From Companilactobacillus kedongensis (GTDB lineage Bacteria; Bacillota; Bacilli; Lactobacillales; Lactobacillaceae), in contig NZ_RHOR01000018.1 in NCBI RefSeq assembly GCF_003946625.1, positions 1 through 42,077 on the forward strand: 42,077 nt of DNA. Direction: 5' to 3'. Numbering within the stretch: the first letter of the stretch is position 1; every line of letters starts with the position of its first letter. Both the position numbers and the translations under genes were made by a program. This document shows, piece by piece, positions 109 through 41,930 of the stretch. Below the pieces are notes generated by a model. The model was not told where the DNA came from. It ran no database searches and saw only the letters and a program-made list of their open reading frames with translations.

Positions 109-252
109 TGCGAACGTTCCAAGCCTTGGTCTTGGAACTCGATTTTGAGCTTTGCTTTCGCAAATCTCAGAATCGTCGGTGGAGTATGAACGGTTCCACC
201 GTTCGACTCCACTTGCACAACTGGTTCCATTATTCAAACTCTTCAGCTACTA
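109..252 (-). repeat. Structured intergenic repeat, copy A (5' part, cut by intron)
   Basis: On the minus strand, from about 252 down to 109, this is the first part of the repeat family also seen as copies B to F. It has the GTGGAGT/ACTCCAC hairpin with an inner GAACGGT/ACCGTTC stem. A TTTGC/GCAAA hairpin follows with the conserved A-G mismatch. A perfect 8-bp stem GTTCCAAG/CTTGGAAC then closes the ACCAAGG loop. The group II intron interrupts right after GTTCGCA, so the 3' arm of the outer stem is outside the window. The outer boundary near 252 is approximate. Confidence 0.75.
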
Positions 253-348
253 TCGTGGACTATAGGAATATATATTCAGCAATATATAATTATATCCAGA
301 AAATATTTCAAATTAAAAGTTTCTAAAGGTATCAGCATGTAAAATCGA

Positions 349-524
349 GCCGGAGAGCGAGAGTGGGTTGGCCAGTAGTGAAAATTCTGTTAGGGCGACG
401 CAGTCGTTCTTACAGAATGGACGTATTTTGAGATTTGCGAACCTGCAAAGCTCAAAATCGAGACTTCGGACCAAGGCCGAAGTCGTTCCCACTACAGGCC
501 AATCCCCTCTCGCTCGTAGGCGGC
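349..524 (+). repeat. Structured intergenic repeat, copy B
   Basis: Intact copy. The outer arms (355-380 and 490-515) pair over about 24 bp: GAGCGAGAG with CTCTCGCTC, then GGG, TTGGCC and GTAGTG, with an A-A mismatch before the innermost helix. Inside lie a hairpin ATTCTGT/ACAGAAT capped by GGGCGAC/GTCGTTC, a TTTGC/GCAAA hairpin with the A-G mismatch, and the 8-bp stem GACTTCGG/CCGAAGTC closing loop ACCAAGG. It ends with GTAGGCGGC. It lies about 110 bp upstream of the dehydrogenase gene on the same strand, so it could be in that gene's leader or be an independent element. Confidence 0.8.
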
Positions 525-582
525 AAAAAAAAATACCACTTCCATTTTTCAAAATTTGAGTTACACTAATAATCACTAACGT

Positions 583-613
583 TTAATTAGAAAAAGATTA
601 AATTTCTAATTAA
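583..613. promoter_or_regulatory. 11-bp perfect inverted repeat in the dehydrogenase leader
   Basis: TTAATTAGAAA at 583-593 pairs perfectly with TTTCTAATTAA at 603-613 across a 9-nt loop, just ahead of the ribosome site of the gene at 636. There is no T-run, so it is not a terminator. It may be an operator or a 5' mRNA hairpin; the sequence alone does not decide. Confidence 0.45.
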
Positions 614-635
614 GCTCAAAGAAAGAGGGATTTTT

Positions 636-1643
636 ATGAAGATATATGTATTTGGTCTCCGTGAAGACGAAATTGAACCTTTAAACCAATGGAAAGCTGC
701 TAACCCAGATGTTGACGTCGATTATACAGCCAACATTTTGACTGAGGAAACAGCTAACTTAGCTAAAGGTGCAGATGGTGTTGTGGCGGTACAAACGCAA
801 CCCTATAGTCGTCACGCCTTGGAGATCATTCATGACCTCGGTATCAGCAAATTCTCAGTTAGAAACGTGGGATTGGATGGATTCGATTTTAAAGATCTGA
901 ACGACTTTGGTTTTACTTTAACTTATGTCCCTGTCTATTCTCCAAACGCTATTGCTGAACACGCCTCTTTCTTAGTTGGACGCTTGCTCCGCCGTGTCCC
1001 AGAATTTGATAAGAAATTTCAGAGTGGTAATTTCAAATGGTTCCCTACTATCGGTACTGAAATCAGCGGCAAAACTGTTGGTGTCATTGGTACTGGCCAT
1101 ATCGGCAGTGTCTTTGCCCGTATTATGCAATTTGGCTATGGCGCTAACGTTATTGCTTACGACATTGATCCTAATCCTGCTCTAGAAAACTTAGGTATCT
1201 ATGTTGATACTCTCGACGAATTACTAGAGAAGTCAGACATTATTTCGATCCATACTCCCCTAGCACCAAAAGATCATCACATGTTAGATGCTGACGCCAT
1301 CGCTAAAATGAAAGATGGCGTCTATCTGATCAATTGTGCACGTGGTGGCTTATTGGACAATAATGCCTTGATCGATGGTCTGGATAGCGGCAAAATTGCC
1401 GGTGCTGGATTGGATGTACTTGAGAATGAAAATGGTATTTTCCAAAACGAATTTGACAGTGTTGAAGCGGTTAACGATCCAGTATTCCAAAACTTAGCCC
1501 ATCGTGACAATGTTATCATCACGCCACATACAGCCTTCTATACTGAACGTGCTGTTCACAATATGATTTTTGATTCCATGAACGATAACAAGGCTATGAT
1601 TTCTGGCAAAGAACCAAAAAATGCTGTTGATACTCACAAATAA
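636..1643 (+). CDS. D-2-hydroxyacid dehydrogenase (D-lactate dehydrogenase-like)
   Basis: A 335-aa cytoplasmic NAD-dependent oxidoreductase of the D-isomer 2-hydroxyacid family, interconverting a 2-oxo acid such as pyruvate and the D-hydroxy acid. Seen: the Rossmann motif VGVIGTGHIG in the middle, the ARGG segment with the substrate-binding arginine, and PHTAFYTE near the C-terminus with the catalytic histidine. PHTAFYT is the usual D-lactate dehydrogenase form. Start at ATG 636 behind AGAGGG. Length is normal for the family. D-hydroxyisocaproate dehydrogenases share this fold, so the true substrate (pyruvate or branched-chain oxo acids) is not settled. It stands alone; the next transcription unit begins with its own promoter and T-box. 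Confidence 0.88.
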   Translation: MKIYVFGLREDEIEPLNQWKAANPDVDVDYTANILTEETANLAKGADGVVAVQTQPYSRHALEIIHDLGISKFSVRNVGLDGFDFKDLNDFGFTLTYVPVYSPNAIAEHASFLVGRLLRRVPEFDKKFQSGNFKWFPTIGTEISGKTVGVIGTGHIGSVFARIMQFGYGANVIAYDIDPNPALENLGIYVDTLDELLEKSDIISIHTPLAPKDHHMLDADAIAKMKDGVYLINCARGGLLDNNALIDGLDSGKIAGAGLDVLENENGIFQNEFDSVEAVNDPVFQNLAHRDNVIITPHTAFYTERAVHNMIFDSMNDNKAMISGKEPKNAVDTHK

Positions 1644-1645
1644 TG

Positions 1646-1674
1646 TTGACAAGTATTTTATCAAGGTGTAACTT
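1646..1674 (+). promoter_or_regulatory. Promoter for the T-box/metE-like operon
   Basis: TTGACA at 1646-1651 and TAACTT at 1669-1674 are separated by 17 bp, immediately upstream of the T-box leader. It starts just after the stop codon of the dehydrogenase gene. Confidence 0.6.
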
Positions 1675-1708
1675 ATTCACCAATCAATTAAAACTTATTT
1701 AATTTTAT

Positions 1709-1971
1709 TAGACGTTGAAGAGAAGAGTAGATTGAATTAGTAATTTGAATAGTGACCGCTAGATAGTGAAAAGGCGGAACGAACGTCAGTCGAATATGAG
1801 CTCAGAGTCTTACTTAGGTGAAAGCCAAAAGTACGCAAGGATGCGATATCATCCCGGACATGTTAGTGTCGTTGAGGTATTTTGTATAAGCAAAATATGA
1901 ATTAGGGTGGTATCACGGGTGATCGTCCCTACATTACAGAGAAAATCTGTAAATGTAGGGACGATTTTTTT
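1709..1971 (+). promoter_or_regulatory. T-box riboswitch, probable methionine specifier, with terminator
   Basis: A tRNA-sensing leader. Stem I is closed by AGAC (1710-1713) with GTCT after the specifier loop and contains the GAAGAGAAGAGTAG region. The specifier is probably ATG at 1796-1798 (context GAATATGAG), meaning methionine. The T-box antiterminator motif AGGGTGGTATCACG is at 1904-1917. The intrinsic terminator has arms starting CGTCCCTACATT (from 1924) and ending ATGTAGGGACG, followed by a T-run to about 1971. Uncharged tRNA-Met would favour read-through into the two MetE-like genes. Confidence 0.9.
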
Positions 1972-2012
1972 ATTGAATAAATTTTAAAAATTATTTTTGG
2001 AGGATTTTAAAT

Positions 2013-3140
2013 ATGACTATTACAAAACAAAAAATTGGATTTCAACATGTAGGAAGTTTCTTAAGACCAGATGAATTAAAGCAAGCTAGAAAAGAATATC
2101 AAGCAGGTAAAATTGATCACGAAGCATTACGAGATGTTGAAGATGCCGCCATTTATCACTTAGTAGAACAACAAAAAGAGGCCGGATTAGATTACGCCAC
2201 TGATGGTGAGTACCGACGTTCATATTGGCACTTAGATTTCTTCTGGGGCTTTGAAGGTGTCGACCATACACATAACGGCGAAGGTTACGACTTTTCAAAA
2301 GGTAGATCACGTGATGATACAGCTGTTCTAACCGATAGGATCAGTTTTGATAAGAACACTCACCCATTCATCGAAGATTTCAAATATCTAAAATCAGTAA
2401 CTGATGAAGTTGGTGGCATATTACCAAAGCAAACTATCCCAGCTCCTGCTCAACTCTACCGTGAATTGACTCGTGATAAGAACCAAGAAGCCTTAGATCG
2501 TATTTATCCTGATAAAGAGCAACTATATGCTGATGTTGAAAAAGCTTATCACGATGCTCTGCTTGCCTTCTATGAAGCTGGTGCACGTGTCATTCAACTT
2601 GATGATTGCTCTTGGGGACGTCTACTGGATAGTAAATTTGTTGCCACTCCTGAAGGACAAAAACTTGTCAAAGAACGCGTTCAAGATATCTACTTAAAAT
2701 TAAATAATGGCGCCGTTGAAGATCTGCCAGACGATTTAGTTATCAACACTCATGTCTGCCGTGGTAACTTCCATTCAGACTTTCTCTTCTCTGGTGGTTA
2801 CGCCCCTGTTGCCGATAATCTATTCGGTCAAGAAAATGTCGATACATACTTCTTGGAATACGATTCCGATCGTGCCGGCGGCTTTGAACCACTAGCCAAA
2901 GTATCTGGTGACAAACGTGTCGTACTCGGTTTGATCACTTCTAAAAAAGGTGAATTAGAAGACCGCCAAGTCATCATCGATCGTATCAAAGAAGCTAGTC
3001 AATATTTACCATTAGACAGACTTTGGTTATCAACTCAATGTGGTTTTGCTTCAACTGAAGAAGGAAACCTCATTACACCGGAGCAACAATGGGAAAAGTT
3101 AGCACTCGTAAAATCAATTATCGAAGAAGTTTGGGGCTAG
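2013..3140 (+). CDS. MetE-like methyltransferase (YxjG/YxjH family), copy 1
   Basis: A 375-aa protein corresponding to the catalytic C-terminal half of cobalamin-independent methionine synthase. It is expected to transfer a methyl group to homocysteine or a related thiol. Probable zinc ligands are His247 and Cys249 in NTHVCRGN and Cys343 in STQCGFAS, as in the MetE family. The N-terminal folate half of full-length MetE is absent, so the methyl donor is uncertain. ATG 2013 follows GGAGG with good spacing. It is the first gene after the methionine T-box and is followed 11 bp later by a close paralogue. Control by tRNA-Met charging fits a role in methionine synthesis or salvage. Confidence 0.85.
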   Translation: MTITKQKIGFQHVGSFLRPDELKQARKEYQAGKIDHEALRDVEDAAIYHLVEQQKEAGLDYATDGEYRRSYWHLDFFWGFEGVDHTHNGEGYDFSKGRSRDDTAVLTDRISFDKNTHPFIEDFKYLKSVTDEVGGILPKQTIPAPAQLYRELTRDKNQEALDRIYPDKEQLYADVEKAYHDALLAFYEAGARVIQLDDCSWGRLLDSKFVATPEGQKLVKERVQDIYLKLNNGAVEDLPDDLVINTHVCRGNFHSDFLFSGGYAPVADNLFGQENVDTYFLEYDSDRAGGFEPLAKVSGDKRVVLGLITSKKGELEDRQVIIDRIKEASQYLPLDRLWLSTQCGFASTEEGNLITPEQQWEKLALVKSIIEEVWG

Positions 3141-3151
3141 GAGGAAAAGTT

Positions 3152-4276
3152 ATGACTATCACAAAACAAAAAATTGGATTTCAACATGTAGGGAGTTTCT
3201 TGAGGCCAGATGTTTTAAAGCAAGCTAGAAAGGATTTCTCTGACAAAAAAATCGATCAAACTGCTTTAACAACTGTTGAAAATGAAGCTATTCGTGATTT
3301 AGTAAATAAGGAGATCAACGCTGGATTAGACTATGTGACTGACGGGGAATTTCGTCGTTCATACTGGCATCTCGACTTTTTCTGGGGCTTTGAAGGTATC
3401 GAACACATCCATTATGGTGAAGGTTATGAATTTGCTCATGAAGAGACACGTGACGATACGGCCATCTTATCTGGAAAAATTAAATTTGATCCGGAAACTC
3501 ATCCCTTCTTGCAACATTTCAAGTTTCTAAAATTATTAACTGATGAAACTTCTGCTGAAGCTAAACAAACTATTCCTGCCCCTGCTCAACTTTATATTGA
3601 GTTGATCCGCGGTACTAACGCTGACAAGATCAAAGAGTTCTATGATACTGATGAAGAATTATTCGCTGACATCGAAGCAGCCTATCACGACGCTATCCTT
3701 GCTTTCTATAACGAAGGAGCCCGTGTGATCCAACTGGATGACTGTTCTTGGGGATTATTCCTAGATGATAAGTTCTTAAATACTCCCGATGGCAAGGCCT
3801 ATGCTGAATCAGGTATCCAAGATATTCTCTTGCAACTAAATAATGGCGCTATCAAAGATTTACCTGACGATTTAACGATTAATACCCATGTCTGTCGTGG
3901 TAATTACCATTCAGATTTTGCTTTTGCTGGAGGATATGGACCAGTTGCTGATACACTATTCGCTAACGAAAATGTTTCGACTTATTTTTTGGAATATGAC
4001 TCTTCACGTGCAGGGAACTTTGAACCTTTAGCAAAAGTATCTGGTGACAAAAATGTTGTCTTAGGTTTGATCACTTCAAAAGACGGTAAATTAGAGGATC
4101 GCCAAGTTATCATCGCTCGTATCAAAGAAGCTAGTCAATTTTTACCATTAGATAGACTTTGGCTATCAACCCAATGTGGCTTTGCATCAACTGAAGAAGG
4201 CAATACCCTTTCAGAAAATCAAGAATGGGACAAGTTAAAGCTAGTTAAGTCAATTATTGGTGAAGTATGGGGCTAA
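3152..4276 (+). CDS. MetE-like methyltransferase (YxjG/YxjH family), copy 2
   Basis: A 374-aa paralogue of the preceding gene, sharing long identical stretches such as RRSYWHLDFFWGFEG and the same HxC...C zinc site (His246, Cys248, Cys342). I chose ATG 3152 because it follows AGGAGGAAAAG and gives the same MTITKQK start as copy 1. The reading frame remains open 63 nt further upstream, but that would overlap copy 1. The pair is a tandem duplication under one T-box. The two copies differ most in residues 28-50 and 85-145, so they may differ in donor or substrate. Confidence 0.85.
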   Translation: MTITKQKIGFQHVGSFLRPDVLKQARKDFSDKKIDQTALTTVENEAIRDLVNKEINAGLDYVTDGEFRRSYWHLDFFWGFEGIEHIHYGEGYEFAHEETRDDTAILSGKIKFDPETHPFLQHFKFLKLLTDETSAEAKQTIPAPAQLYIELIRGTNADKIKEFYDTDEELFADIEAAYHDAILAFYNEGARVIQLDDCSWGLFLDDKFLNTPDGKAYAESGIQDILLQLNNGAIKDLPDDLTINTHVCRGNYHSDFAFAGGYGPVADTLFANENVSTYFLEYDSSRAGNFEPLAKVSGDKNVVLGLITSKDGKLEDRQVIIARIKEASQFLPLDRLWLSTQCGFASTEEGNTLSENQEWDKLKLVKSIIGEVWG

Positions 4277-4281
4277 GATGA

Positions 4282-4310
4282 TTGAAACCGCTTTCAAAAA
4301 GTGTTATAAA
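4282..4310 (+). promoter_or_regulatory. Promoter with overlapping CcpA cre site
   Basis: TTGAAA (4282-4287) and TATAAA (4305-4310) are spaced by 17 bp. The sequence TGAAACCGCTTTCA at 4283-4296 fits the cre consensus and covers the -35 region, so CcpA should repress when preferred sugar is present. It drives the 25-codon ORF and the YxeA-family gene. Confidence 0.75.
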
Positions 4311-4348
4311 GGAGTTGTAGAGAGTTTATAAATGTTGGAGGTGTTATT

Positions 4349-4426: not shown

Positions 4427-4429
4427 GGG

Positions 4430-4456
4430 CTTACAAATCCGTAAGAGTATTGTAAG
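4430..4456 (+). promoter_or_regulatory. Alternative hairpins between small ORF and yxeA-like gene
   Basis: CTTAC at 4430-4434 can pair with GTAAG at 4441-4445; alternatively CTTACAA at 4430-4436 pairs with TTGTAAG at 4450-4456. The two pairings exclude each other and start 4 nt after the small ORF's stop codon. No T-run follows, so a role in attenuation is only a possibility. Confidence 0.3.
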
Positions 4457-12206: not shown

Positions 12207-13342
12207 AATTGGGAACAGCATTCGTTAGGCAACATAGTAAAACGCATTACAAGAAAGAATACAAATTTGGATTCAACATTGCCACTTACAATTTCTGCAC
12301 AAAAAGGATTAATAGATCAAGAAAGCTTTTTTGATAAAAAAATTGCTAGTAAAGATGTCAGTGGATATTATCTGATAAAGAAAGGAGAATTTGCCTACAA
12401 TAAATCGTATTCAAATGGATATCCATGGGGAACAATTAAACGACTAGACAGATATGATATGGGCGTCCTTTCTACTCTTTATATTGTTTTTGTACCAACA
12501 AAAGTAAATAGTAACTTTCTAACAAAGTATTATGACACCACTTACTGGTATCGCGAATTATCCATGAACGCATCTGAAGGAGCTAGGAACCATGGGCTAC
12601 TTAATATATCACCGTCGGACTTTTTTAACACAAAGCTGACAATCTCTCAAACTCATGAAGAACAAAAAAAATAGGTAATTTCATTTCACGTTTAGATTTG
12701 TTAATTGATCTTCAACAACGGGAACTCGACTTATATAAAAAATTAAGAAAAGGTCTTTTACAAAAACTATTCCCTTCAGATGGGGAAAATGTACCAATTG
12801 TGAGATTTGCTGATTTTGATGAAAATTGGAAGCAGTATAAGCTACACCAGATATTTCAATATGAACAGCCAAGTAAATACATAGTTACTTCAACTGACTA
12901 TAATACAAATTATGAAATACCAGTTCTTACAGCTGGAAAAAGTTTCATTTTAGGTTATTCTAATGAACATTATGGTATTAAAAGCGCAAATAAGAATAAT
13001 CCAATTATTATTTTTGATGATTTTACTGTTGGAATGCACTATGTTGACTTTCCGTTCAAAGTGAAAAGTTCAGCAATGAAACTTATTAGCTTAAAATCTA
13101 ATGATAATAATTCTATTTTTATGTATTACATCCTAAAGAAAATACATTATGTTCCACAAGGACATGAACGACAATGGATTTCAAAGTTTTCTCAATTTGA
13201 TACTTTAATTCCTTTTACCTCTGAACAAAATAAAATAGGTGATATACTGAATAATATTGATAAACTTTTAAAGTCACGAAAATACAAACTGAATGAAATT
13301 TCTATGTTAAAAAAATACTATCTCCAAAAACTGTTCATCTAA
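12207..13342 (+). pseudogene. Silent, frameshifted hsdS cassette (hsdS')
   Basis: Encodes two HsdS target-recognition domains in the orientation opposite to the active hsdS. The first (from about 12207) reads NWEQHSLGNIVKR, then LPLTISAQKGLIDQ. No start codon or N-terminal MDKRVPEVRLKGF segment exists: an in-frame stop lies at 12204. The first domain ends at TAG 12674 just after an A8 run (12664-12671). With A9 the frame would run on as EEQKKIGNF into the shared central repeat. The second half (from about 12698) keeps the central repeat LQQRELDLYKKLRKGLLQK and a second recognition domain to 13342. It is a donor cassette for inversion, not an independently expressed gene. Confidence 0.85.
12704..12823. 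repeat. 120-bp inverted repeat, left arm (hsdS recombination site)
   Basis: Identical by eye, in reverse complement, to 14972-15091 in the active hsdS; identity goes on for a further 8 nt after one mismatch. It encodes the central conserved helix region and lies at the join between recognition domains. Confidence 0.92.
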
Positions 13343-13382
13343 ATAAAGCTCACATGACATTCCTTGTCATGTGAGCTTTATT
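13342..13382. terminator. 18-bp perfect hairpin between hsdS' and recombinase
   Basis: AATAAAGCTCACATGACA pairs perfectly with TGTCATGTGAGCTTTATT around TTCCT. It ends transcription from both sides; the minus-strand recombinase gene stops inside it. Confidence 0.75.
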
Positions 13383-14307
13383 ACATTAACTTAGACATTT
13401 GAAACATTATCTTTTCACTATCTTGTGTTTCTAATTCCTGAATAATATGAAGGTATGTATTTTGTGTAGTTGTCATATTGGCATGTCCTAATCGACGTGC
13501 AACACTTGCAATAGATACTCCAGCAAACAGAAGTAATGATGCATGTGTATGTCTAAGTCCATGTACTGTGATCACTGGAATATTAGCATTTATACAAAGA
13601 ACTGCCAATCTATTATTAATAGTTGAATTGAATATTCGTTGTTTTACAAAAATAGGCTGATCCTGCGGTAATTCTTTTATCATTTGAGAGAATTGCATCG
13701 CCATTTGCCAATCTATTTGCACTTTTCTAACTGATGATGGATTCTTAGTTGGTTGAAACCCACCATTAGTAGCACGATAATTCCAAGTTTTACTTACATT
13801 TAAAAGTTGTTTTGTAAAATCAAAATCATTTGGTGTTAATGCCAGGGCTTCTGCAAATCGTAGACCAGTTTTGGCAACTAATAGGATGTACCAATCCCAA
13901 TTGATTGTATAACCTAAATCCAGTTGTCTAATTAACTGTTGTAATTCGTATTGATTTAGAAATTTAGGTTTCTTAACACTAGGCTTTTTACCTTTAATAA
14001 TAATTTTGCGAGTGGGATTCTGCGTTATTAATCCTTCGTCAAGAGCATCCATTATCGCACCTTTTACTTGGTGATGAAAATCCTTGGTAGTTTGTTTTTC
14101 ATGATCCAAAGCATATCCATTAATTAATTCTTGATAACTTCGTCTCGTTAAATCACATAATCGTAGATTGGGCGCTAATTTGGTAACCCATTTTAAACTC
14201 ATATAATATTTATCCAATGTGACTGATCGAATTGCATTAACCTTGTATAAGTTAATCCACTCTTCGTAATACTTATAGAATAGCTGAGATGATTTAGTTT
14301 TACGCAC
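13381..14307 (-). CDS. Tyrosine recombinase (hsdS invertase candidate)
   Basis: A 308-aa tyrosine site-specific recombinase. An N-terminal SAM-like DNA-binding domain (about residues 5-95) precedes the catalytic domain with TGLRFAEAL (first Arg), HGLRHTHASLLL (His-x-x-Arg), GHANMTTTQNTYLH (second His and nucleophile Tyr). All R-H-R-H-Y residues are present. I take GTG 14307 as start because TTTGGAGG lies 7 nt upstream. It sits between the active and silent hsdS copies, as in other phase-variable type I loci, so DNA inversion between the hsdS inverted repeats is the likely job. The family also holds phage integrases; no other phage genes are seen. Confidence 0.88.
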   Translation of the reverse strand: MRKTKSSQLFYKYYEEWINLYKVNAIRSVTLDKYYMSLKWVTKLAPNLRLCDLTRRSYQELINGYALDHEKQTTKDFHHQVKGAIMDALDEGLITQNPTRKIIIKGKKPSVKKPKFLNQYELQQLIRQLDLGYTINWDWYILLVAKTGLRFAEALALTPNDFDFTKQLLNVSKTWNYRATNGGFQPTKNPSSVRKVQIDWQMAMQFSQMIKELPQDQPIFVKQRIFNSTINNRLAVLCINANIPVITVHGLRHTHASLLLFAGVSIASVARRLGHANMTTTQNTYLHIIQELETQDSEKIMFQMSKLM

Positions 14308-14395
14308 AAAAAAACCTCCAAATAATTTTTGGTATATAGGTACCACTGTTTATTATCCGGAAGTTTTATTTTAATACAGTCATATATCCAAAACG

Positions 14396-15625
14396 TCAAA
14401 CAAAAAGTTTTTGAAGATAGTATTTTTTTATTAAATTTAGTTCTCCCATCCTTCCTTTTTGCAAATCAATAATGTTATTAATATTATTCAATAATTCACC
14501 TATGTTTCTTTGCTCTTCAATTTTTGTAACCGGAACATTCATGTCCATTACTTTATTCTTTGAAATATTATATCGTGAAATACCTTGTGCCAATATAATA
14601 AATTTTTTCCTTATTGATGGTGATCGCAGCATAAAAGCCCAGTAATAGGGAGAAAATGGTATTTCTAGGTTATATCCAAAACAGAAACTATTAAGATAGA
14701 TATTTTCCGCTTTTTCAAGCCATATGGATGACATTCCCACCTCTTCGGGTGTTTCTGATGAAGTCGTGAATAGTATATTTCCATATTTCAATTGATATTG
14801 TTTTGAATCAATTTCAACACTTTCGACCATATTTGGATTTGAAATAGGATTACTAAATACGTTCATATAGGTAACAAATTTAGCATCCCCATGTCCAAAA
14901 TCTTTTTTTGTTTTCCCACTTAAACCAGCAAATGTTTTGCCTATTTCTCCCAACTTACGCTTCTTCCAATCTTCATCAAAATCAGCAAATCTCACAATTG
15001 GTACATTTTCCCCATCTGAAGGGAATAGTTTTTGTAAAAGACCTTTTCTTAATTTTTTATATAAGTCGAGTTCCCGTTGTTGAAGATCAATAAATTTGTC
15101 TATTTTTTTGAATAATTTACCAATTGTATTTTGTTCTTCTATTGATGGAAAATCCATTATCATTTTTGATAGTTGTTTTCCAGAAATTTCAAGGAAAGTA
15201 GATCCGGCACCGTTAATTTCACCATACCTTTTCAATTCATTAGTACGAGAAAAAATAAAATAAGTGTCTAATGTTCCATCATGAGGGACAATCGACTGAA
15301 AACCTTGGTTGGTAGTTCCAGGTTCGGATAAAATAGCGGTATTCCCAATACCTGCACGAGAGGTAAATAAAACAGTATCTCTGGGAAGCATATGTGCGGA
15401 GCTTTTTTCTAATCCTAATTTAGTTATCTTTTTTTTACTACTAACCATATATGAGTTTTCACCAATTTCAGCTGGAGAATACCAATTTATATTCCCATTC
15501 CAAAATTTTTCATTTGATGTATTCGGAGTTCCTCCTCCGACAATTTTCGCTACATCTCCCAACTTACGCAGTTCCCAATCATCAGTAAATCCCTTAAGCC
15601 GTACCTCCGGCACACGTTTATCCAT
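14396..15625 (-). CDS. hsdS: Type I restriction-modification specificity subunit HsdS
   Basis: A 409-aa DNA-recognition subunit joining HsdM and HsdR. Layout: N-terminal segment 1-20, recognition domain 1 (about 20-160), central conserved helices (162-202, ending LYKKLRKGLLQKLFPSDGE), recognition domain 2 (about 220-365), C-terminal conserved helices ending KKYYLQKLFV. Its ATG overlaps the end of hsdM by 8 nt. The central helix DNA is repeated exactly, inverted, in the silent cassette at 12704. Inversion there would swap recognition domain 2 for QYKLHQIFQYEQPS... and change the methylated sequence. Confidence 0.92.
   Translation of the reverse strand: MDKRVPEVRLKGFTDDWELRKLGDVAKIVGGGTPNTSNEKFWNGNINWYSPAEIGENSYMVSSKKKITKLGLEKSSAHMLPRDTVLFTSRAGIGNTAILSEPGTTNQGFQSIVPHDGTLDTYFIFSRTNELKRYGEINGAGSTFLEISGKQLSKMIMDFPSIEEQNTIGKLFKKIDKFIDLQQRELDLYKKLRKGLLQKLFPSDGENVPIVRFADFDEDWKKRKLGEIGKTFAGLSGKTKKDFGHGDAKFVTYMNVFSNPISNPNMVESVEIDSKQYQLKYGNILFTTSSETPEEVGMSSIWLEKAENIYLNSFCFGYNLEIPFSPYYWAFMLRSPSIRKKFIILAQGISRYNISKNKVMDMNVPVTKIEEQRNIGELLNNINNIIDLQKGRMGELNLIKKYYLQKLFV
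14972..15091. repeat. 120-bp inverted repeat, right arm (inside hsdS)
   Basis: Reverse complement of 12704-12823 without a mismatch. Two shorter inverted matches also exist: ATTGGGAAC at 12208-12216 against 15571-15579, and a 23-nt near-match at 13310-13332 against 14406-14428 coding for the C-terminal KKYYLQKLF. Confidence 0.92.
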
Positions 15626-17267
15626 TATGTTTCACCTCATCATCTAGCATAGAAATGAAGTCATTGAGATCATTTTGTATTTTTTCATCAGAAGAAGTGA
15701 GTTCTTTCATCATTGAAAGTAACTCCTTTTTATTTTCTTCAATTTTTTTATTATTTTCTTTTATTTCTTTTGTTATCTCTCCTAAATCAATTTCTGGTTC
15801 AGGTTCAAAAGTATCTACATATCTTGGTATATTCAAATTGAAATCATTCTCTTCAATTTGATCCATTGCTGCAACATGAGCGTATTTATCAACATCTTTT
15901 CGATCATTATATGTATCAACAATCTTGTTAATATCTTCATCACGAAGAAGATTTTGGTTCTTTCCTTTTTCAAAATCACTACTTGCATCAATAAATAGAA
16001 CATCTCTATTTATTTTATTTTTCTTCAATACCATAACAACAGTTGGAATACCCGTTGAATAGAACAGTCCTGCAGGTAGTCCAATAATTGCGTCAATTTG
16101 ATTTTTCTCCAATAAAGCACGGCGGATTTTTTCTTCCTTAGCACCACGGAATAAAACACCATGTGGCAAAACGATTGCCATTGTTCCTTTAGAACTTAGA
16201 TGATATAAGCCATGCAATAAGAATGAATAATCTGCCTTTGTCTTTGGAGCTAGGCCACCATAATCCTTAAAACGTGGATCCTTCATTTTATTATCATTAT
16301 TATCCCAGTGTGCTGAATAAGGAGGATTTGCGACAACCATATCAAAGCTTCTTGGATGATCAATACCTTGTGAGTCAATTCCATCAGGCCAATCGCTTTC
16401 CAATGTATCCGCATTACGTAAATCCATGTTCATGTATGAAACATCATGCATCATCAAATTCATACGAGCCAGGTTATATGTTGTTGTGTTTAGTTCTTGT
16501 CCATAATAAAATAGACGACGATTTTTAATTTGTTCCTGAACCGTTAACAATAATGAACCTGAACCACAGGCAAAGTCATAAACACTTGGCTTGGTTTCTT
16601 CTGGATCTAACCCTTGAACAACTAATTTAGCTAAAACTTCAGATACTTGGTGAGGCGTATAGAATTCTCCAGCCTTCTTACCTGAATTACCAGCAAATTG
16701 AGCAATTAGAAATTCATAAATATCACCTAAAATATCGTGACCATCATCATCTTTATACTGAACTTCATCAACTAAATTAACGATTTCTGTCAGCGCCTTA
16801 GCACGTGCAGCAGTCGTTTGACCTAAACGAGAATTACCAAGATTCATGTCAGCAAAGACACCGTGGAAATCTTGCTTAGCATTTGTATTCAAATCAACAT
16901 TGTGATTAAAGTCATCTAACATATCTTGAAAGTCTGATGGTGCAATGGAATTGTCATTTACTTTATCAACAATCGTTTGCCAAGTATATTGTGGAGCAAT
17001 TGCATAACCTAAAGAATCAGCAAGATCTTCAAGATAATCAGCTAAGTCATCCCCATTAGCTTGTTCTGCATATGCTTCATTAACACTTTGACCTCCAGCA
17101 ACATCTAACAAATCATTTTGGACCATTCTCTGTTCCTGATGTTCTGATAAATAACGATAAAACATAAATCCTAAAATATAGTTTCTATATTCGCTGGCAT
17201 CCATATTGCTACGAAGTCGATTGGCCATTTCCCATATTTGACTGGTAATTTCTTGTGCTTTACTCAT
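15618..17267 (-). CDS. hsdM: Type I restriction-modification methyltransferase HsdM
   Basis: A 549-aa N6-adenine methyltransferase subunit. The N-terminal helical domain (MSKAQEITSQIWEMANRLR...) comes first. The catalytic domain follows, with the S-adenosylmethionine site DFACGSGS (residues 231-238) and the catalytic NPPY (314-317). The C-terminal region (about 490-545) is a charged coiled coil that should contact HsdS. The length is usual. Second gene of the hsdR-hsdM-hsdS operon, 8 bp after hsdR and overlapping hsdS. Works with two copies per HsdS to protect host DNA. Confidence 0.94.
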   Translation of the reverse strand: MSKAQEITSQIWEMANRLRSNMDASEYRNYILGFMFYRYLSEHQEQRMVQNDLLDVAGGQSVNEAYAEQANGDDLADYLEDLADSLGYAIAPQYTWQTIVDKVNDNSIAPSDFQDMLDDFNHNVDLNTNAKQDFHGVFADMNLGNSRLGQTTAARAKALTEIVNLVDEVQYKDDDGHDILGDIYEFLIAQFAGNSGKKAGEFYTPHQVSEVLAKLVVQGLDPEETKPSVYDFACGSGSLLLTVQEQIKNRRLFYYGQELNTTTYNLARMNLMMHDVSYMNMDLRNADTLESDWPDGIDSQGIDHPRSFDMVVANPPYSAHWDNNDNKMKDPRFKDYGGLAPKTKADYSFLLHGLYHLSSKGTMAIVLPHGVLFRGAKEEKIRRALLEKNQIDAIIGLPAGLFYSTGIPTVVMVLKKNKINRDVLFIDASSDFEKGKNQNLLRDEDINKIVDTYNDRKDVDKYAHVAAMDQIEENDFNLNIPRYVDTFEPEPEIDLGEITKEIKENNKKIEENKKELLSMMKELTSSDEKIQNDLNDFISMLDDEVKHNG

Positions 17268-17275
17268 AATTTCTC

Positions 17276-20200
17276 CTAATATTTCTCAACAATTTGATCA
17301 GCAAATTTCTTAAAACTTCTTCTCAAATGTGTTCTATATTTAATTTTTGACAAATCTCTAACATGTTCGGCATCAGCATCATCTATATAAACAGTGGATC
17401 CTTCTTTAACAATTTGATCTAAAATACCATTTATATTCAAATCATCTGCAGATTTAACGTGGTTTTCAATAATTTTATTAATTGACTGTGAGGAATCAAT
17501 ATCTGCTAATCCCCAAGTCTTTTTATATTCAAAAATATCATTTCTTAAGCGCATATTATTTTGACCTGTAACCAAGTTCTTTATATCTTTTTGATTAACA
17601 GGATAATCATAGTCTTTAACATTTCCCTTTAGCACATCATCAGTAAATTGATTAATCTGTTCTGCGTATTTACGATCATCAACTTTATCGGAGATTGTCT
17701 TAATCTCCTCGGCAGTTTTATTAGCGGACTCCAAATCGTCCTCGTGATATTGATTCATCAAGTCTGCAATTAACTCTTCCAAATAATCGTAATTCACTTG
17801 AATTTCTTTGACATGTTCCATCTTCAAATCAATTTGAGATACATCAACATTGTGATAGATAGCCATTTTTTGTTTAACATCATTAGTTAAGGTAGTTGTT
17901 AATACTTCTTCTGTATCAACATCTATCCCTAATTCATCCAAAAGTTTTTCAGGCTTTTTATCATCATACTTGTCATCTTGCTTAATCATAGACATCAAGT
18001 GATTATATTGACGTAAACTAGAATACATTTCTTCCACTTTATTTTGACTATCGGGCGTTCTACTAAAGTCATCTGAATAATTTGCTAATTGATCAACAAC
18101 TTTCTTTAGGTCCTGTTTAATATCCTCATATGGTTTTTCAATTACATCATCAGTAATACCTGGAAGTTCAATCTGAATATTCGCTGAATCTCGATTTGCA
18201 TATGTAGCTAATGCTTTTTTCATAAGTACTTCTGTATGATGTGGCCAACGATAATTGACTATTCGTCCAAATGGCTTTGTTTGCATATCATAAACTCTAT
18301 TAGTTCTTGAGTATGCTTGAATCAAAGCTGCTCCTTGCAAGGTTCTATCAACATATAAAGTGTTCATTTGTGGTGCATTGAAACCTGTTAGCAACTGATC
18401 GACGACAATAACAATATCAAAATATTTACCATCGCTAATTGTTCTATTTAATCTTGAAACAACTTGAGCTGTATATTCTTTTACTTGAGTATCATCAAAA
18501 CTAGTTCCAAATTCTTCATTATAATCATTCATGACCTCACGTAAGGAATCATTATTTTTCAATTGTTTATCGCTATTTGAAGTATCCTGACTAAATGTTA
18601 TTCCAACTTTTAGTGGCTTATCTAATTCAGAATTTCTACGCTTAAATTCATGATAGTATTTCATAGCCATTGGTGTGGATGCTTTTCCACCACCAACATG
18701 CGTTGTAAATAAGGCATTATATTCACCATTACGTGACCGCTTATTCCAATTTTTAATAATATCATCTACAACTAACTCGACATGTTTAGGATTATCATCA
18801 TAAACCGATGGCTTAACCGTATCATCCATATCATCATCGGCCATATTATCAATTTTTGCTTGAACGTCTTCATCAGACATCTTTGGATAACGACTCTTAA
18901 AATATTCTGGTAAATATTGTTCACGTAGAACTGAATCAGATAATGTCGTTTCAAAATCAACCTTAAATCCGAGTACATTTCCATCAGCAATCGCATCACG
19001 AATTGTATACGCATGAATCAAATCACCAAAAACTTCACTCGTTGTTGGATGGACTTCAAAAACCGGTGTACCTGTATAACCTATCCAAGCAGATTTTCTA
19101 AATCCGCCCTTAATACGTTTCAACATATCACCAGAGGTAGAGCGATGAGCTTCATCAACAATGAAGACGATATTTTTATCAATTCGTTTAAAGTTTTTAT
19201 CACGGACCATTGCATCCATCTTTTGAGTAGAAGTAACTATAATTCCGTTACCATTCTTCTTTAACTTACGTTCCAGTACCCAACGATTTGATGTATCTGT
19301 TACTACACCACCATTACTATCATCTGTATTTTCTGGATCATAAGCTTTATATTCATCAACTGTTTGATTAGTTAAAGCAACACGATCAACTAAGAAAATA
19401 ACTTTATCCACATTAGGTAATCTTGATGCCAACCAAGCAGCTTTAAAGGAACTGATTGTTTTACCAGAACCTGTTGTATGCCATACATAGCCAGCACCCT
19501 GTTCATCAATTCCAAAAGTATGCTGACGTAACTTTCTAATTACTCTCTGAGTTGCATAAACCTGATATGGGCGCATAACTTTAATCATTTGGTGTCTAGG
19601 TGTTCCATCAAGAATCATATAATTAGTCGCCATTTGATGAGACATAGGAATAGATAGCATATTATTAGCGAATTCTTTCCAATCAAATACCGGTTTATTG
19701 TCATCCGCTCTTTGCCAACGAAAAGCAAAGTCAGTATTAAATTTGTCAGCAGTTGAATTTGCCATATATCGACTATCATGCGGAGTAATTGCTACCAATA
19801 TTTGAAGAGTTGAGAAAATATCAGAATATTGATTTTCTTCAATATACTGATGCATTTGATTTAATGCTTCTTTAGCATCATGACCATCCGCTTTTTCCTC
19901 AATTTGAATTATGGGTAATCCATTTATTAATAAAGTAGTATCAAAACGACGATTTTTACGACCAGGAATAATTGCTGGTCGTTCAATTTGATTTACGATT
20001 TGGTAAATGGTATCTCCAGCACCGATATTATCTTGATCAAAAATCTTCAAATAAACATGCTGTCCATCGTCACGATCAATTTCTACTTGGGAGATTCCAT
20101 TCATACCATATAAAAATTGACCAGCTTGATACGGAGTTTCAAGTTGTCCAATAATCATTTGAATCTGCTTAAATTCTGCATCAGAAAGAGGCTTATCTAA

Positions 20201-20362
20201 TCTATCTTGATTGTGTTGTTCAACAATACTTTTAAAGTTTCCCCATAAATCATCAGTCGTTTTAATTTGGTCATTATAGTCCCACTGCTTTGTTCCACCC
20301 AAATTAACTAAATAGTCTATTAATTTATTTTCAAATTGTAATTCGTTGACTTCTACACTCAT
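17276..20362 (-). CDS. hsdR: Type I restriction enzyme subunit HsdR
   Basis: A 1028-aa motor and nuclease subunit. The N-terminal nuclease core has Asp141 (RRFDTTLL) and Glu155-x-Lys157 (IIQIEEK). The ATP-driven translocase part has Walker A TTGSGKT (296-302), DEAH (403-406), GYTGTP and the motif VI region QAYSRTNRVY. The C-terminal helical domain (about 780-1028) should bind the methylase complex. All catalytic residues are present, so restriction should be active. First gene of the operon, start ATG 20362 behind GAGGGATATATC. It cuts unmodified DNA remote from the site set by HsdS. Confidence 0.94.
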   Translation of the reverse strand: MSVEVNELQFENKLIDYLVNLGGTKQWDYNDQIKTTDDLWGNFKSIVEQHNQDRLDKPLSDAEFKQIQMIIGQLETPYQAGQFLYGMNGISQVEIDRDDGQHVYLKIFDQDNIGAGDTIYQIVNQIERPAIIPGRKNRRFDTTLLINGLPIIQIEEKADGHDAKEALNQMHQYIEENQYSDIFSTLQILVAITPHDSRYMANSTADKFNTDFAFRWQRADDNKPVFDWKEFANNMLSIPMSHQMATNYMILDGTPRHQMIKVMRPYQVYATQRVIRKLRQHTFGIDEQGAGYVWHTTGSGKTISSFKAAWLASRLPNVDKVIFLVDRVALTNQTVDEYKAYDPENTDDSNGGVVTDTSNRWVLERKLKKNGNGIIVTSTQKMDAMVRDKNFKRIDKNIVFIVDEAHRSTSGDMLKRIKGGFRKSAWIGYTGTPVFEVHPTTSEVFGDLIHAYTIRDAIADGNVLGFKVDFETTLSDSVLREQYLPEYFKSRYPKMSDEDVQAKIDNMADDDMDDTVKPSVYDDNPKHVELVVDDIIKNWNKRSRNGEYNALFTTHVGGGKASTPMAMKYYHEFKRRNSELDKPLKVGITFSQDTSNSDKQLKNNDSLREVMNDYNEEFGTSFDDTQVKEYTAQVVSRLNRTISDGKYFDIVIVVDQLLTGFNAPQMNTLYVDRTLQGAALIQAYSRTNRVYDMQTKPFGRIVNYRWPHHTEVLMKKALATYANRDSANIQIELPGITDDVIEKPYEDIKQDLKKVVDQLANYSDDFSRTPDSQNKVEEMYSSLRQYNHLMSMIKQDDKYDDKKPEKLLDELGIDVDTEEVLTTTLTNDVKQKMAIYHNVDVSQIDLKMEHVKEIQVNYDYLEELIADLMNQYHEDDLESANKTAEEIKTISDKVDDRKYAEQINQFTDDVLKGNVKDYDYPVNQKDIKNLVTGQNNMRLRNDIFEYKKTWGLADIDSSQSINKIIENHVKSADDLNINGILDQIVKEGSTVYIDDADAEHVRDLSKIKYRTHLRRSFKKFADQIVEKY

Positions 20363-20478: not shown

Positions 20479-20555
20479 CACTTATCTAAAGTATCAATAA
20501 TAATAGGAAGAAAAATATTATTTTAAATTTTGGCTTTGATCTAGAAATATATCCA

Positions 20556-20730
20556 GCCGAAGGCGTAGAAGATATCCATAAGCAGTGACAATGGCGTTAG
20601 GACAGCGATTTTCTGTCCTTACACCATGAATGATTTCGAGATTTGCAAAGCAAAACTCAAAATCGAGATCCCAGACCAAGGCTGGGATCGGTTCCACAGC
20701 GATGGACATCCTCTACACCGTAGGCGACAG
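20556..20730 (+). repeat. Structured intergenic repeat, copy C
   Basis: Intact copy. Outer arms GTAGAAGATATCCAT (20565-20579) and ATGGACATCCTCTAC (20702-20716) pair fully with G-T pairs. Hairpin 1 is ATGG...CCAT with inner AGGACAG/CTGTCCT. Hairpin 2 is a TTTGC/GCAAA-type stem within GATTT...AAATC. Hairpin 3 is GATCCCAG/CTGGGATC with the ACCAAGG loop. It ends GTAGGCGACAG. It lies between the hsdR promoter side and the SDR gene's terminator; no gene is seen in 20363-20754. Confidence 0.8.
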
Positions 20731-29910: not shown

Positions 29911-29963
29911 AAGAGGAGCCATATTACACTTAATCTCACGTGTAATATGGCTCCTCTTTTTGA
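29911..29963 (+). terminator. 19-bp perfect terminator hairpin
   Basis: AAGAGGAGCCATATTACAC and its exact complement at 29940-29958 followed by TTTTT. Confidence 0.9.
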
Positions 29964-29992
29964 ATAGAGTAATTATTTTAAAAAACAAATTA

Positions 29993-30165
29993 GTAGGAAG
30001 AACTGAAAATATTCACCAGCTATGAGAGTGGCGTTATTGCTTTAGCAATTACACCACCGGACGAGTTTGAAGACTTACCATAGGTGAGGCTTCAAACCGA
30101 AGATCGAGACCAAGGCTCGATCCGGTCCGCATAGCAGGTGAATATTCTCAGTTCTGTAGACGAAA
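29993..30165 (+). repeat. Structured intergenic repeat, copy D (intact intron target)
   Basis: Outer arms ACTGAAAATATTCACC (30002-30017) and GGTGAATATTCTCAGT (30137-30152) pair in 15 of 16 positions. GCTATG/CATAGC continues the stem past an A-A mismatch. Hairpin 1 is GTGG...CCAC with inner ATTGC/GCAAT. Hairpin 2 is GTTTGAAG/CTTCAAAC with the A-G mismatch and CTTACC/GGTGAG. Hairpin 3 is GATCGAG/CTCGATC with ACCAAGG in the loop. It carries CGCA|TAGCAGG, the junction used by the introns in copies A and F. Confidence 0.85.
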
Positions 30166-32289: not shown

Positions 32290-32481
32290 TATTGTATAGT
32301 TATCAATTTTGCAATACTAGATATAGTATTTAGCTAAAATATACCTAATCGAATTTATCTAATATGGTTTATATTTGAATTGAATAATAATCTCATATAG
32401 GATGACAATTCCACTACATTTAAAAAGCTTCACCGATCCCATTTTCCTTATATCAAACAAACCTTAACGAACAACTAGTCG

Positions 32482-32652
32482 TAAGGCATGAGAATATTTA
32501 CCGACTATGGCAGTGGCGTTATTGCTTTAGAAATTACACCACCGGGCAAGTTTGGAGACTTACCGGTTTATGGTAAGGTTTCAAGCCGAGGTACCAGGTC
32601 AAGGCTAGGACCGTTCCGCATAGCAGGTGAATATTCTCATATCTGGAGACGG
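32482..32652 (+). repeat. Structured intergenic repeat, copy E (intact intron target)
   Basis: Outer arms ATGAGAATATTTACC (32488-32502) and GGTGAATATTCTCAT (32626-32640) pair, then CTATG/CATAG. Hairpin 1 has GTGG...CCAC. Hairpin 2 has the CTTACC/GGTAAG top with the A-G mismatch. Hairpin 3 is less perfect than in other copies (GGTACCAG against CTAGGACC) and its loop is GTCAAGG. It carries CCGCA|TAGCAGG, the intron target. It ends GGAGACGG, 27 bp before the MerR-type promoter. Confidence 0.82.
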
Positions 32653-38256: not shown

Positions 38257-38286
38257 TGTATCTGCTCCATTCTATTGAACTAATTT

Positions 38287-39705: not shown

Positions 39706-39738
39706 GTCTATCTCCTATCGAAGTTTCGTTTATTTTTA

Positions 39739-39815
39739 TATGTTAACCGGTTGTCATATTGCTTTACGAGAATTATTGTAATCGCTAACATTCTTTATGT
39801 CAACCGGTTGTCATA
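39739..39815 (-). promoter_or_regulatory. Fructan operon promoter with two LacI operators and cre
   Basis: Minus-strand promoter TTGACA (39803-39798), 17-bp spacer, TACAAT (39780-39775). Two operators with core AACCGGTT lie at 39796-39815 (covering -35) and 39739-39758, cores 57 bp apart. TGTTAGCGATTACA (39790-39777, minus) is a cre-like site with one deviation, overlapping -10. This predicts LacI repression plus CcpA control. Confidence 0.82.
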
Positions 39816-39821
39816 AAAACA

Positions 39822-39852
39822 TAAAAAAATAATTAGAACCTAAATTCTAATT
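39822..39852 (-). terminator. Terminator of the lacI-type gene
   Basis: On the minus strand AATTAGAA and TTCTAATT pair, followed by ATTTTTTT. It separates the regulator from the operon promoter. Confidence 0.75.
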
Positions 39853-39859
39853 ATCGTCG

Positions 39860-40837
39860 TTATATTGATTGGCCTTGCCAAACCTTTACCGGAATAGTCT
39901 GCTCTAGGTCTGTTTTTTTACCGTCAATTCTTTGAATCAGCGTTTTTACAGCCGCCGTAGCCATCTCTTCTACCGGTTGTTGAATAGTTGTTAGTTCTGG
40001 AAGCAACATTCTAGTCGTATTTGATCCGTCATATCCTACAATTTTCAGATCATCAGGTATTTTATAGCCCAGTTTAGTGGCTGTTTGCCAAATCAGCGCT
40101 GCATCAATGTCATTCGTGGCAAATATTCCATCAACTTCTGGATATTCAGTAAATATCTCCTGAACTGCTTTGGCTTTTTGGTCCATATCCCAGTTAAAAT
40201 CGATTAAACAAGTATGAGGATCCAATCCATGATCTTTCATAACATCTTCATATGCATCACGTCTTCTATGTGCTGGTGTTTCCAAATTACGCGGACCATC
40301 AGTATTGATAATGTGCTTGGCACCACTATTTATCAGTAATTCCGTTGCCAATTTGCCCCCCATGTAGTTATCTGAAGAAATCACTGGAATGTCTTCATTC
40401 ATGACTCGATCGATAGCAACAACTGGAAGATTAGCATTGTGATATTCATCGATCCCTATATTTTGAGCTCCAACGATCAACCCATCGACCTGATTAGAGA
40501 TCAATTCTTTTAGATATGTCTCTTCTTTTTCAGGATCATTCATCGAATTGCCGATCAAAACTTTGAACCCAGCATCAAAGAGCCGTTTCTCTAGTTCCGC
40601 AACTAATTCGCCGAAGAATGGATTATCAACCGTTGGAAAAATAAGACCGACTAACTTGGTTTCTTTTTTGTAAAGTTGGCGTGCTACAGCATTCGGCTGA
40701 TAATTTAAATAGTCTATGGCATCGTGAACTTTTTTTATTGTTTTTTCACTCAAGTATCCACGATTATTCAGCACTCGTGAAACTGTGGTTTTGGAAACTC
40801 CCGCAACCTTTGCTACATCATCTATTTTGACTACCAT
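39860..40837 (-). CDS. LacI-family repressor of the fructan operon
   Basis: A 325-aa regulator. N-terminal helix-turn-helix and hinge: KIDDVAKVAGVSKTTVSRVL, then the hinge helix with YQPNAVARQL. A periplasmic-binding-like effector domain follows with VGLIFPTVDNPFFGELV and FATNDIDAALIW. The twin AACCGGTT operators just downstream, before GH32, are the expected targets. The inducer is likely a fructo-sugar, from context. ATG 40837; own promoter with TATAAT near 40878-40873. Confidence 0.9.
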   Translation of the reverse strand: MVVKIDDVAKVAGVSKTTVSRVLNNRGYLSEKTIKKVHDAIDYLNYQPNAVARQLYKKETKLVGLIFPTVDNPFFGELVAELEKRLFDAGFKVLIGNSMNDPEKEETYLKELISNQVDGLIVGAQNIGIDEYHNANLPVVAIDRVMNEDIPVISSDNYMGGKLATELLINSGAKHIINTDGPRNLETPAHRRRDAYEDVMKDHGLDPHTCLIDFNWDMDQKAKAVQEIFTEYPEVDGIFATNDIDAALIWQTATKLGYKIPDDLKIVGYDGSNTTRMLLPELTTIQQPVEEMATAAVKTLIQRIDGKKTDLEQTIPVKVWQGQSI

Positions 40838-40920
40838 TCAAATTCACCTATATCCTTGATTCTGATAAATCCATTATACAGTAATCATATATTTTTTAAC
40901 TCAATCTAAAATAATTGCAA

Positions 40921-40970
40921 TTGACGACCAGTTTTCAGAATGGTATCTTAAATCATCGAAAGCGATTGCA
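40921..40970 (+). promoter_or_regulatory. Fructokinase promoter with cre-like site
   Basis: TTGACG (40921-40926), 17-bp spacer, TATCTT (40944-40949). CGAAAGCGATTGCA at 40957-40970 deviates from the cre consensus at its first base. No AACCGGTT operator here, so control by CcpA rather than by the LacI protein is suggested. Confidence 0.65.
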
Positions 40971-40998
40971 GAAATTTTTAGTCTGGGAGGAATTTAAA

Positions 40999-41871
40999 TT
41001 GTTAGTTGGAAGTATTGAAGCAGGTGGAACAAAATTTGTCTGTGCCGTAGGTGATGAAGACTATCGCATCAAGGATAGTATCCATTTCCCAACGACAACA
41101 CCAAAAGAAACCTTACAAAAATCGATCGAGTATTTTAAACAATTTGATATTAAAGCATTAAGTATTGCCTCTTTTGGTCCCATAGAATTACGTAAAAATT
41201 CACCAAAATATGGCTATATCACCTCGACACCAAAACCAGGTTGGCAAGATACCGACTTCATTGGTGCCCTCAAAAAAGAACTCGATGTCCCAATGTTTTG
41301 GACAACAGATGTTAACGGATCAGCTTATGGCGAATACGTTATGTCGAGCCTTTCAAATGAAAAAATCAACTCACTAGTTTATTACACGATCGGTACTGGC
41401 GTTGGTGCCGGTGCAATCTTTGATGGCAAATTTGTTGGTGGTATGGGACATCCAGAAATGGGACATACCTTACTTAAACGCCATCCTGATGATCTTGATT
41501 TTAAAGGAATCTGCCCATTTCACGGTGACTGTTTAGAAGGATTGGTAGCTGGACCAACCTTTGATGCACGTTTAGGCAAACCAGGTAAAGACGTACCGAT
41601 TACAGATCATACTTGGGATATTATGGCCTACTATGTAGCCCAAGCGGCGATCCAATCAACACTGATTTTGCGTCCTGAGAAAATTATCTTCGGTGGCGGA
41701 GTAGTTAGTGAACAATTTCTAGTCAAAGTACGCGAACAATTCAAAACACTCTTGAACGATTACGTTGAAGTACCAGACCTAGAAAAATATATCACAATGC
41801 CTATCGTTAAAAACAACGGCTCCGCAACACTCGGAGACTTTGCATTAGCAATTCGTGAATTACATGAATAG
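40999..41871 (+). CDS. ROK-family fructokinase
   Basis: A 290-aa ATP-dependent sugar kinase, phosphorylating fructose to fructose-6-phosphate. Phosphate loop GSIEAGGTKF at the N-terminus, IGTGVGAGAI, and the ROK zinc site in GHPEMGH...CPFHGDCLEG (His, Cys, His, Cys) are present. The GPIEL and WTTDVNGSAYGEY parts match the YdhR/GmuE fructokinase group. Start TTG 40999, 8 nt behind GGGAGG; an upstream ATG in frame lacks a ribosome site. Divergent from the LacI-type gene, it completes the fructan pathway. Confidence 0.88.
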   Translation: MLVGSIEAGGTKFVCAVGDEDYRIKDSIHFPTTTPKETLQKSIEYFKQFDIKALSIASFGPIELRKNSPKYGYITSTPKPGWQDTDFIGALKKELDVPMFWTTDVNGSAYGEYVMSSLSNEKINSLVYYTIGTGVGAGAIFDGKFVGGMGHPEMGHTLLKRHPDDLDFKGICPFHGDCLEGLVAGPTFDARLGKPGKDVPITDHTWDIMAYYVAQAAIQSTLILRPEKIIFGGGVVSEQFLVKVREQFKTLLNDYVEVPDLEKYITMPIVKNNGSATLGDFALAIRELHE

Positions 41872-41897
41872 TTAGGTTTATTCGTTTAGGTTTTTTA

Positions 41898-41930
41898 TTC
41901 GTCTCCAGATCTGAGAATATTCACCTGCTA
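41898..41930 (-). repeat. Structured intergenic repeat, copy F (3' end, cut by intron)
   Basis: Minus strand: TAGCAGGTGAATATTCTCAG then ATCTGGAGACG, nearly identical to the 3' ends of copies D and E. The remainder of the repeat is separated by the group II intron and lies outside the window. Confidence 0.8.

Follow-up and report, generated by a model that had tools for sequence, protein, structure and literature searches.

What kind of element is a folded repeat of ~180 nt, with three hairpins, that recurs between the genes of a bacterial contig? The question is raised by a 42,077-nt stretch of Companilactobacillus kedongensis DNA (NZ_RHOR01000018.1, hereafter the window), which is contig C10 of a 2.27-Mb genome in 37 contigs. 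A preliminary description, made from the letters of the window, had listed six copies of an unrecognised structured repeat (A to F). We confirmed that the repeat family is real and that all six copies lie where they had been placed (Table 1), the five longer ones folding well below shuffled sequence. We incline, with some reserve, to regard these copies as one family of small, non-autonomous mobile repeats that act like giant REP/REPIN elements. Copies A and F are each interrupted by a group II intron, which accounts for their short length, and they are parts of two different copies, the outer arm of A reading as having no pairing to the tail F.

Family size and distribution

Using copy D as the BLAST query, 43 matches were obtained in the C. 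kedongensis genome. A covariance model (29 aligned copies, 177 positions and 66 pairs, with window copies B–E as part of its own seed) identified at least 150 copies there (150 of the 703 first-look candidates were scored and all matched), and a finer search of fetched regions gave copies beyond these 150. Searching the genome and Lactobacillaceae with such a model had been proposed at the outset, and many matches were found in both: within the family the repeat occurs in 59 of 251 sampled genomes, representing 11 of 40 genera, and in 28 of 31 genomes of the genus Companilactobacillus, with copies per genome ranging from 0 to at least 88 among these 31. At the level of the order, 26 of 395 sampled genomes had matches, of which the eight outside the family were weak (28–45 bits). 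One genome from another family of the order (G358; genomes and loci are cited by our own G and L numbers) has six weak matches of near-equal score (~32 bits), which suggests a different folded repeat family there.

Among relatives, G270 holds 142 copies in 400 kb picked around strong hits, a density that does not extrapolate to the whole genome, and C. keshanensis holds 28 (31 matches minus three reverse-strand duplicates) compared to at least 150 in C. kedongensis. Elsewhere, one exact segment of the repeat turned up only in Companilactobacillus huachuanensis and C. keshanensis (11 stretches, in a search that may have omitted records from very near genomes), and plasmids, phages and viral contigs returned no copies when searched by BLAST with two copies and by one exact pattern. 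Consistent with the claim of an unrecognised family, Rfam gave no match over the window copies, whether the gathering threshold or an E value of up to 5 was applied, and we found no paper in the open-licence literature on these repeats in Companilactobacillus or Lactobacillus. In copy-rich species the repeat fills a large share of intergenic regions, without Rfam annotation.

Overall, the copies appear to form a family of small mobile repeats that has not been described before. The EFAR/Efa-1 repeats of Enterococcus faecalis, of which EFAR inserts into stem-loops, are alike in size. Compared by description only, Efa-1 has 163 nt and 65 intergenic copies in the excerpted account (PMC2267715); a difference is that our covariance model matches few sequences outside Lactobacillaceae, and those weakly. 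Also compared by description, the BOX, RUP and SPRITE repeats of pneumococcus resemble the present family as small, folded, interspersed Firmicute repeats that are thought to be parasitic and slow-moving; the same partial account (PMC3049150) makes BOX modular and gives BOX and RUP terminal inverted repeats and target duplications, whereas no terminal inverted repeat and no clear target duplication is seen here.

Fold, covariation and folding strand

The fold closes with the pairs GYC/GRC. Inward of these come a 3x3 internal loop, usually GGA/GGA or GGA/GUA, then the long outer stem, the A.A mismatch, an inner stem and hairpin 1, and finally a short stem around hairpins 2 and 3. The plan first proposed holds for the A.A mismatch at the outer-stem junction, the U.U in the loop of hairpin 1 and the A.G mismatch in hairpin 2. 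Two of its details had to be revised: the ACCAAGG assigned to hairpin 3 is not a fixed loop, consisting of a bulged A and then CC/GG around variable letters, and the GTAGRCG-like tail said to follow the hairpins is not loose, pairing instead with the 5′ end around the 3x3 loop.

In the alignment that had not been fitted to structure, pairing holds for 95.1% of cells and both sides change in 47 of 66 pairs, and shifting the partner columns by 1–3 lowers pairing to 35–42%. The corresponding values in G270, from 149 rows fitted to the model (including seven reverse-strand duplicates), are 97.0% and 59 of 66. Without selection, G-U and A-C cells would be about equal in number. On the named strand, G-U exceeds A-C by 96 to 38 in the unfitted alignment and, in fitted alignments, which lean towards the model in this test, by 397 to 57 in G270, 130 to 30 in a 43-copy set drawn from 29 loci in many genomes, 139 to 27 in a 50-copy set, and 226 to 147 in the C. 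kedongensis genome, which on these counts also contains decayed copies. The named strand is therefore the one that folds. Furthermore, two mismatches and one bulged A hardly vary across genera, within stems that are otherwise variable: in sets of 137 (G270), 101 (C. kedongensis genome), 43 and 50 copies, the A.G of hairpin 2 is kept in 122, 96, 39 and 41, the U.U of hairpin 1 in 119, 77, 33 and 47, and the bulged A of hairpin 3 in 134, 94, 38 and 49, respectively. Because palindrome correction would erase such unpaired bases, something probably reads them.

The terminal 3x3 loop of G270 copies is GGA/GGA in 74 of 137 and GGA/UCC or UCC/GGA in 19 of 137, a three-base block change that resembles template switching. 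Within inverted repeats, template switching is described, in the portion of the source cited, as yielding compensatory changes without selection (PMC8794818); with block conversions visible here, part of the covariation may reflect this process rather than selection. The initial argument from compensatory change to selection on a folded RNA or single-stranded DNA thus stands in one part, a constrained folded single strand being supported by covariation, G-U excess and fixed bases, and is weakened in another, since template switching can mimic compensation. Selected unpaired bases and block conversions in the same copies provide a natural case for separating the two processes. At one locus (L104, 2120–2276 and 2356–2512), head-to-tail copies have near-identical interiors and different outer stems, each self-complementary.

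Pairing, placement and turnover

Copies A (−) and B (+) of the window lie head-to-head, as do most close pairs. Among the C. kedongensis matches listed, this orientation was found for 45 of 45 neighbours within 800 nt; within 600 nt it was found for 45 of 46 in a finer recount of sampled C. kedongensis regions, 43 of 47 in G270, 11 of 13 across stretches taken from four relatives, 8 of 9 in C. keshanensis, 10 of 12 at eleven named loci (two being C. keshanensis again) and 13 of 13 at 29 other loci. Nine of the ten exceptions are head-to-tail (two of these in a single run), the tenth being tail-to-tail. Partners resemble each other less than permuted partners do (0.639 versus 0.656, P 0.004; 0.663 versus 0.689, P 0.0002), and the arms were accordingly rejected as local duplicates; pairing of unlike subfamilies was not supported by the partner comparison either. 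The deficit of similar partners may have arisen because near-identical pairs were lost. A common spacer was likewise rejected, as a flank matches another flank for only 21 flanks across 142 copies in G270 and 19 flanks across 98 copies in C. kedongensis. Similar terminator-like hairpins recur in pair spacers (e.g., L109, L127, L119 and L034, and L234 of C. keshanensis) and at sites without the large repeat, and are perhaps a second small repeat family. Separately, ~10 copies at G270 loci L170, L172, L178, L181, L182 and L187 have 5′ flanks that are related over up to 100 nt and carry the motif GGTGCTAGTT, and a longer unit including such a flank may sometimes move or be copied together in that genome.

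Placement was assessed in 103 C. kedongensis copies, from regions mostly chosen for pairs and with open reading frames (ORFs) called in this analysis, and in G270. No called ORF spans any of the 103 copies, and copies occur in all gene arrangements. The gene on the 3′ side converges on the copy in 75 of 100 cases in C. kedongensis (47 of these 75 within 20 nt) and is co-directional in 25 of 100, whereas in G270 it converges in 58 of 131 and is co-directional in 73 of 131. Terminator-like hairpins within 130 nt show a comparable divergence, being found in C. kedongensis on the 5′ side of 44 of 100 copies and the 3′ side of 9 of 100 (random stretches, 31 of 400), and in G270 on the 5′ side of 18 of 138 and the 3′ side of 27 of 138 (random stretches, 18 of 400). 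Downstream of one pair (L245, ~19780–19860) lies a leader that we take to resemble a preQ1 riboswitch, with orthologues in G254, G270 and G256.

These positions bear on two explanations in which the repeat serves its host. The copies could be structured non-coding or cis-regulatory RNAs that dispersed in the distant past and have since been retained, locus by locus, for a function in the cell, a proposal that would account for the strand-specific fold, the G-U tolerance and the nearly fixed unpaired bases, and that finds room in the co-directional minority of C. kedongensis and the 73 such copies of G270, which could lie in the leader of the 3′-side gene. We nevertheless think it unlikely: a simple consensus scan upstream of copies revealed no sense promoter bias (sites scoring at least 9, 19 sense versus 22 antisense for 118 C. 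kedongensis copies and 28 versus 22 for 140 G270 copies), sites are not conserved between species, and copies sit in every gene arrangement. The non-coding RNA family raised in the preliminary description is not demonstrated by this evidence, given also how often the 3′-side gene of C. kedongensis opposes the copy. A gene running against the repeat would carry the complementary strand in its mRNA, which matters for the second explanation, namely that the repeat is a terminator or stability element in the 3′ untranslated region of the preceding gene. The converging genes that end so close to C. kedongensis copies, together with the excess of hairpins on the 5′ side there, are what such an element would produce; on the complementary strand, however, the G-U cells become A-C mismatches, both placement patterns fail in G270, and the selection of C. 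kedongensis regions for pairs qualifies its counts, so that we give this explanation very little weight.

Comparison between species indicates turnover. Both flanks of 34 of 118 copies were located in the examined C. keshanensis stretches; at ten loci read by eye, six had no recognisable copy and four had stubs, among them a hairpin formed by fusion of the outer halves of a collapsed pair and an outer stem lacking its interior, and at one locus the situation was reversed, with a copy in C. keshanensis and a stub in C. kedongensis. Such remnants indicate decay by deletion, and loss explains part of the difference in copy number between the two species. The cleanest site follows an ORF that we presume to be SecG-like: in G256 and G270 the terminator leads directly to the next gene, and G252 has 259 nt extra, made up of a copy and 79 nt on its 5′ side, in an arrangement shared with G254. 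An automatic search yielded five further occupied/empty candidates, none cleaner. For the window itself, G262 and G175 have no copy at the site of copy D, and G229 carries one on the opposite strand at the site of copy E, the flanks differing in both cases. The proposed search for empty sites in relatives produced occupied and empty versions of one site amid untidy others, and the mobile element first suggested is supported by the differences in copy number and sites among relatives, although no transposition event was seen.

A classical miniature inverted-repeat transposable element, that is, the ends of a DDE insertion sequence whose gene has been lost, moved by that transposase, would fit the size, copy number and intergenic spread, and one empty site would allow a 3-base ATA duplication. 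The ends of the repeat, however, meet only as GYC/GRC around an internal loop, which is not a terminal inverted repeat, and no ORF of at least 100 aa recurs at >70% identity in ~423 kb of G270, Y1 being the only transposase family searched; we hold this origin to be highly improbable.

Mobilisation and group II introns

The habits of the repeat recall those of REP/BIME/REPIN elements with TnpA-REP (RAYT). As far as the excerpts cited describe them, REPs form many intergenic copies, mostly inverted dimers with variable spacers near gene 3′ ends (PMC3733652, PMC8266576), and are recognised strand-specifically as a folded strand that needs a bulge or mismatch (PMC8266576), to which the strand-specific fold with fixed bulge and mismatches corresponds here. 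Unlike a REP, a single palindrome of 20–40 bp, the present repeat has ~180 nt, three hairpins and 177 model positions; instead of a GTAG or CGTC tag it has GTAG-like letters in some 3′ tails only, and several copy-rich genomes contain no Y1 transposase. Models for Y1 (PF01797), GIIM and RVT_1 found nothing in the single-contig genome G252, where all 88 scored candidates match the repeat. PF01797 is present in 16 of the 31 genus genomes, full-length in copy-free G003 and G268 and as a fragment at a contig edge in G000, and was not found in copy-rich G252, G254, G229 or G260; mobilisation by RAYT/Y1 was rejected, as PF01797 presence does not track copy number. No abundant repeated gene was found beside the G270 copies among 327 ORFs.

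If a reverse transcriptase, perhaps one encoded by the resident group II intron, made the copies from RNA, the repeat would be a retroelement like a short interspersed nuclear element, in keeping with the RNA-like G-U tolerance of the named strand and with group II introns located in copies in three genomes. Reverse transcriptase was rejected as the mobiliser, with no RVT_1 or GIIM match in copy-rich G252 or in G256, and these domains occur in only 9 and 8 of the 31 genus genomes, respectively; we regard this route as very improbable indeed.

The mobile-repeat reading that we prefer can be framed as follows. An enzyme supplied in trans would recognise the named strand in its folded, single-stranded state by the fixed mismatches and bulge, and would place copies between genes, close to gene ends and terminators; a second copy would arrive independently, head-to-head with the first, and near-identical inverted partners would be lost by collapse, leaving dissimilar survivors. 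The mobilising enzyme may have been lost, or may be one missed by the Y1, GIIM and RVT_1 models. A bolder version, which we put forward as rather doubtful, is an undescribed transposition system that moves a large folded single strand without Y1 HUH transposase or reverse transcriptase and sets second copies head-to-head.

Several observations weigh against the repeat being mobile. No insertion event, parent element or enzyme was found; the single fairly clean site offers no clear target duplication, only the ambiguous 3-base ATA; most occupied/empty comparisons are untidy, with adjacent sequence changed too; and some copy differences between species are losses, not gains. Placement by terminators differs between C. 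kedongensis and G270, and in the only unfitted alignment the per-pair strand sign test yields no more than P = 0.053. REP-like habits, namely inverted dimers, a strand-specific fold, fixed bulges and positions at gene ends, at ~5 times REP size and apparently without RAYT in several genomes, make the question of other mobilisers of folded repeats a testable one.

Group II introns lie inside copies at four loci in three genomes (the window, L021, L182 and L192). Both window introns occupy the same repeat position, between CCGCA and TAGC relative to copy D, which matches that in L021 (C. kedongensis) and L182 (G270), the latter intron encoding a 463-aa TIGR04416 group II reverse transcriptase/maturase; in L192 (G254) the intron is on the other strand, after hairpin 1. 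Introns with similar ends follow terminator-like hairpins at five loci (L189, L190, L191, L193 and L194). Group IIC introns are described, in the part cited, as inserting either downstream of intrinsic terminators or within attC hairpins, and this repeat does not figure there as a target (PMC4424553); the introns here are alike in following terminator-like hairpins or sitting in the folded repeat, a likeness to class C in insertion habit. The repeat family thus joins the sites at which terminator-seeking group II introns land, and the intron copies explain where the assembly breaks.

Table 1 Repeat copies and associated features of the window (covariance model, CM; z, fold relative to shuffled sequence)
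Feature	Position	Strand	Evidence
5′ end of group II intron inserted in copy A, running off the contig	1–108	−	begins GTGCGCCCGGCATGGG
Copy A, 5′ part of repeat	109–252	−	intron cuts copy after ...TTCGCA; CM match 76–250, 59.5 bits, end set by model; z −4.9
AT-rich spacer between head-to-head copies A (−) and B (+)	253–345		sequence and orientation rule
Copy B, complete	346–524	+	CM match 346–523, 149.9 bits; z −10.5
Copy C, complete	20553–20730	+	CM match 20553–20727, 123.4 bits; z −7.7
Terminator-like hairpin, 5′ side of copy D	29913–29962		read from sequence; such hairpins enriched on this side among the C. kedongensis copies sampled
Copy D, complete	29990–30165	+	CM match 29990–30163, 183 bits; z −10.2
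Copy E, complete	32475–32652	+	CM match 32475–32652, 159.1 bits; z −4.4
Copy F, 3′ tail of another repeat after the intron 3′ end	41898–41930	−	junction between CTCGAT and TAGCAGG; weak CM match 41899–41971, 12.3 bits, E 0.054
3′ end of group II intron in the copy whose tail is F	41931–42077	−	domain V match 41931–41999, RF00029, 50.2 bits

Elsewhere in the window, positions 12698–20362 hold a type I restriction-modification locus (HsdR, HsdM and HsdS) with an integrase-family gene and a second, partial HsdS in the opposite orientation; its 141-nt inverted repeats (96%; 12701–12841 and 14954–15094) suggest specificity switching by inversion. At 1706–4276, a leader resembling a T-box, its 76 bits falling short of the Rfam threshold of 93, lies upstream of two tandem related ORFs, the first of which matches Meth_synt_2.

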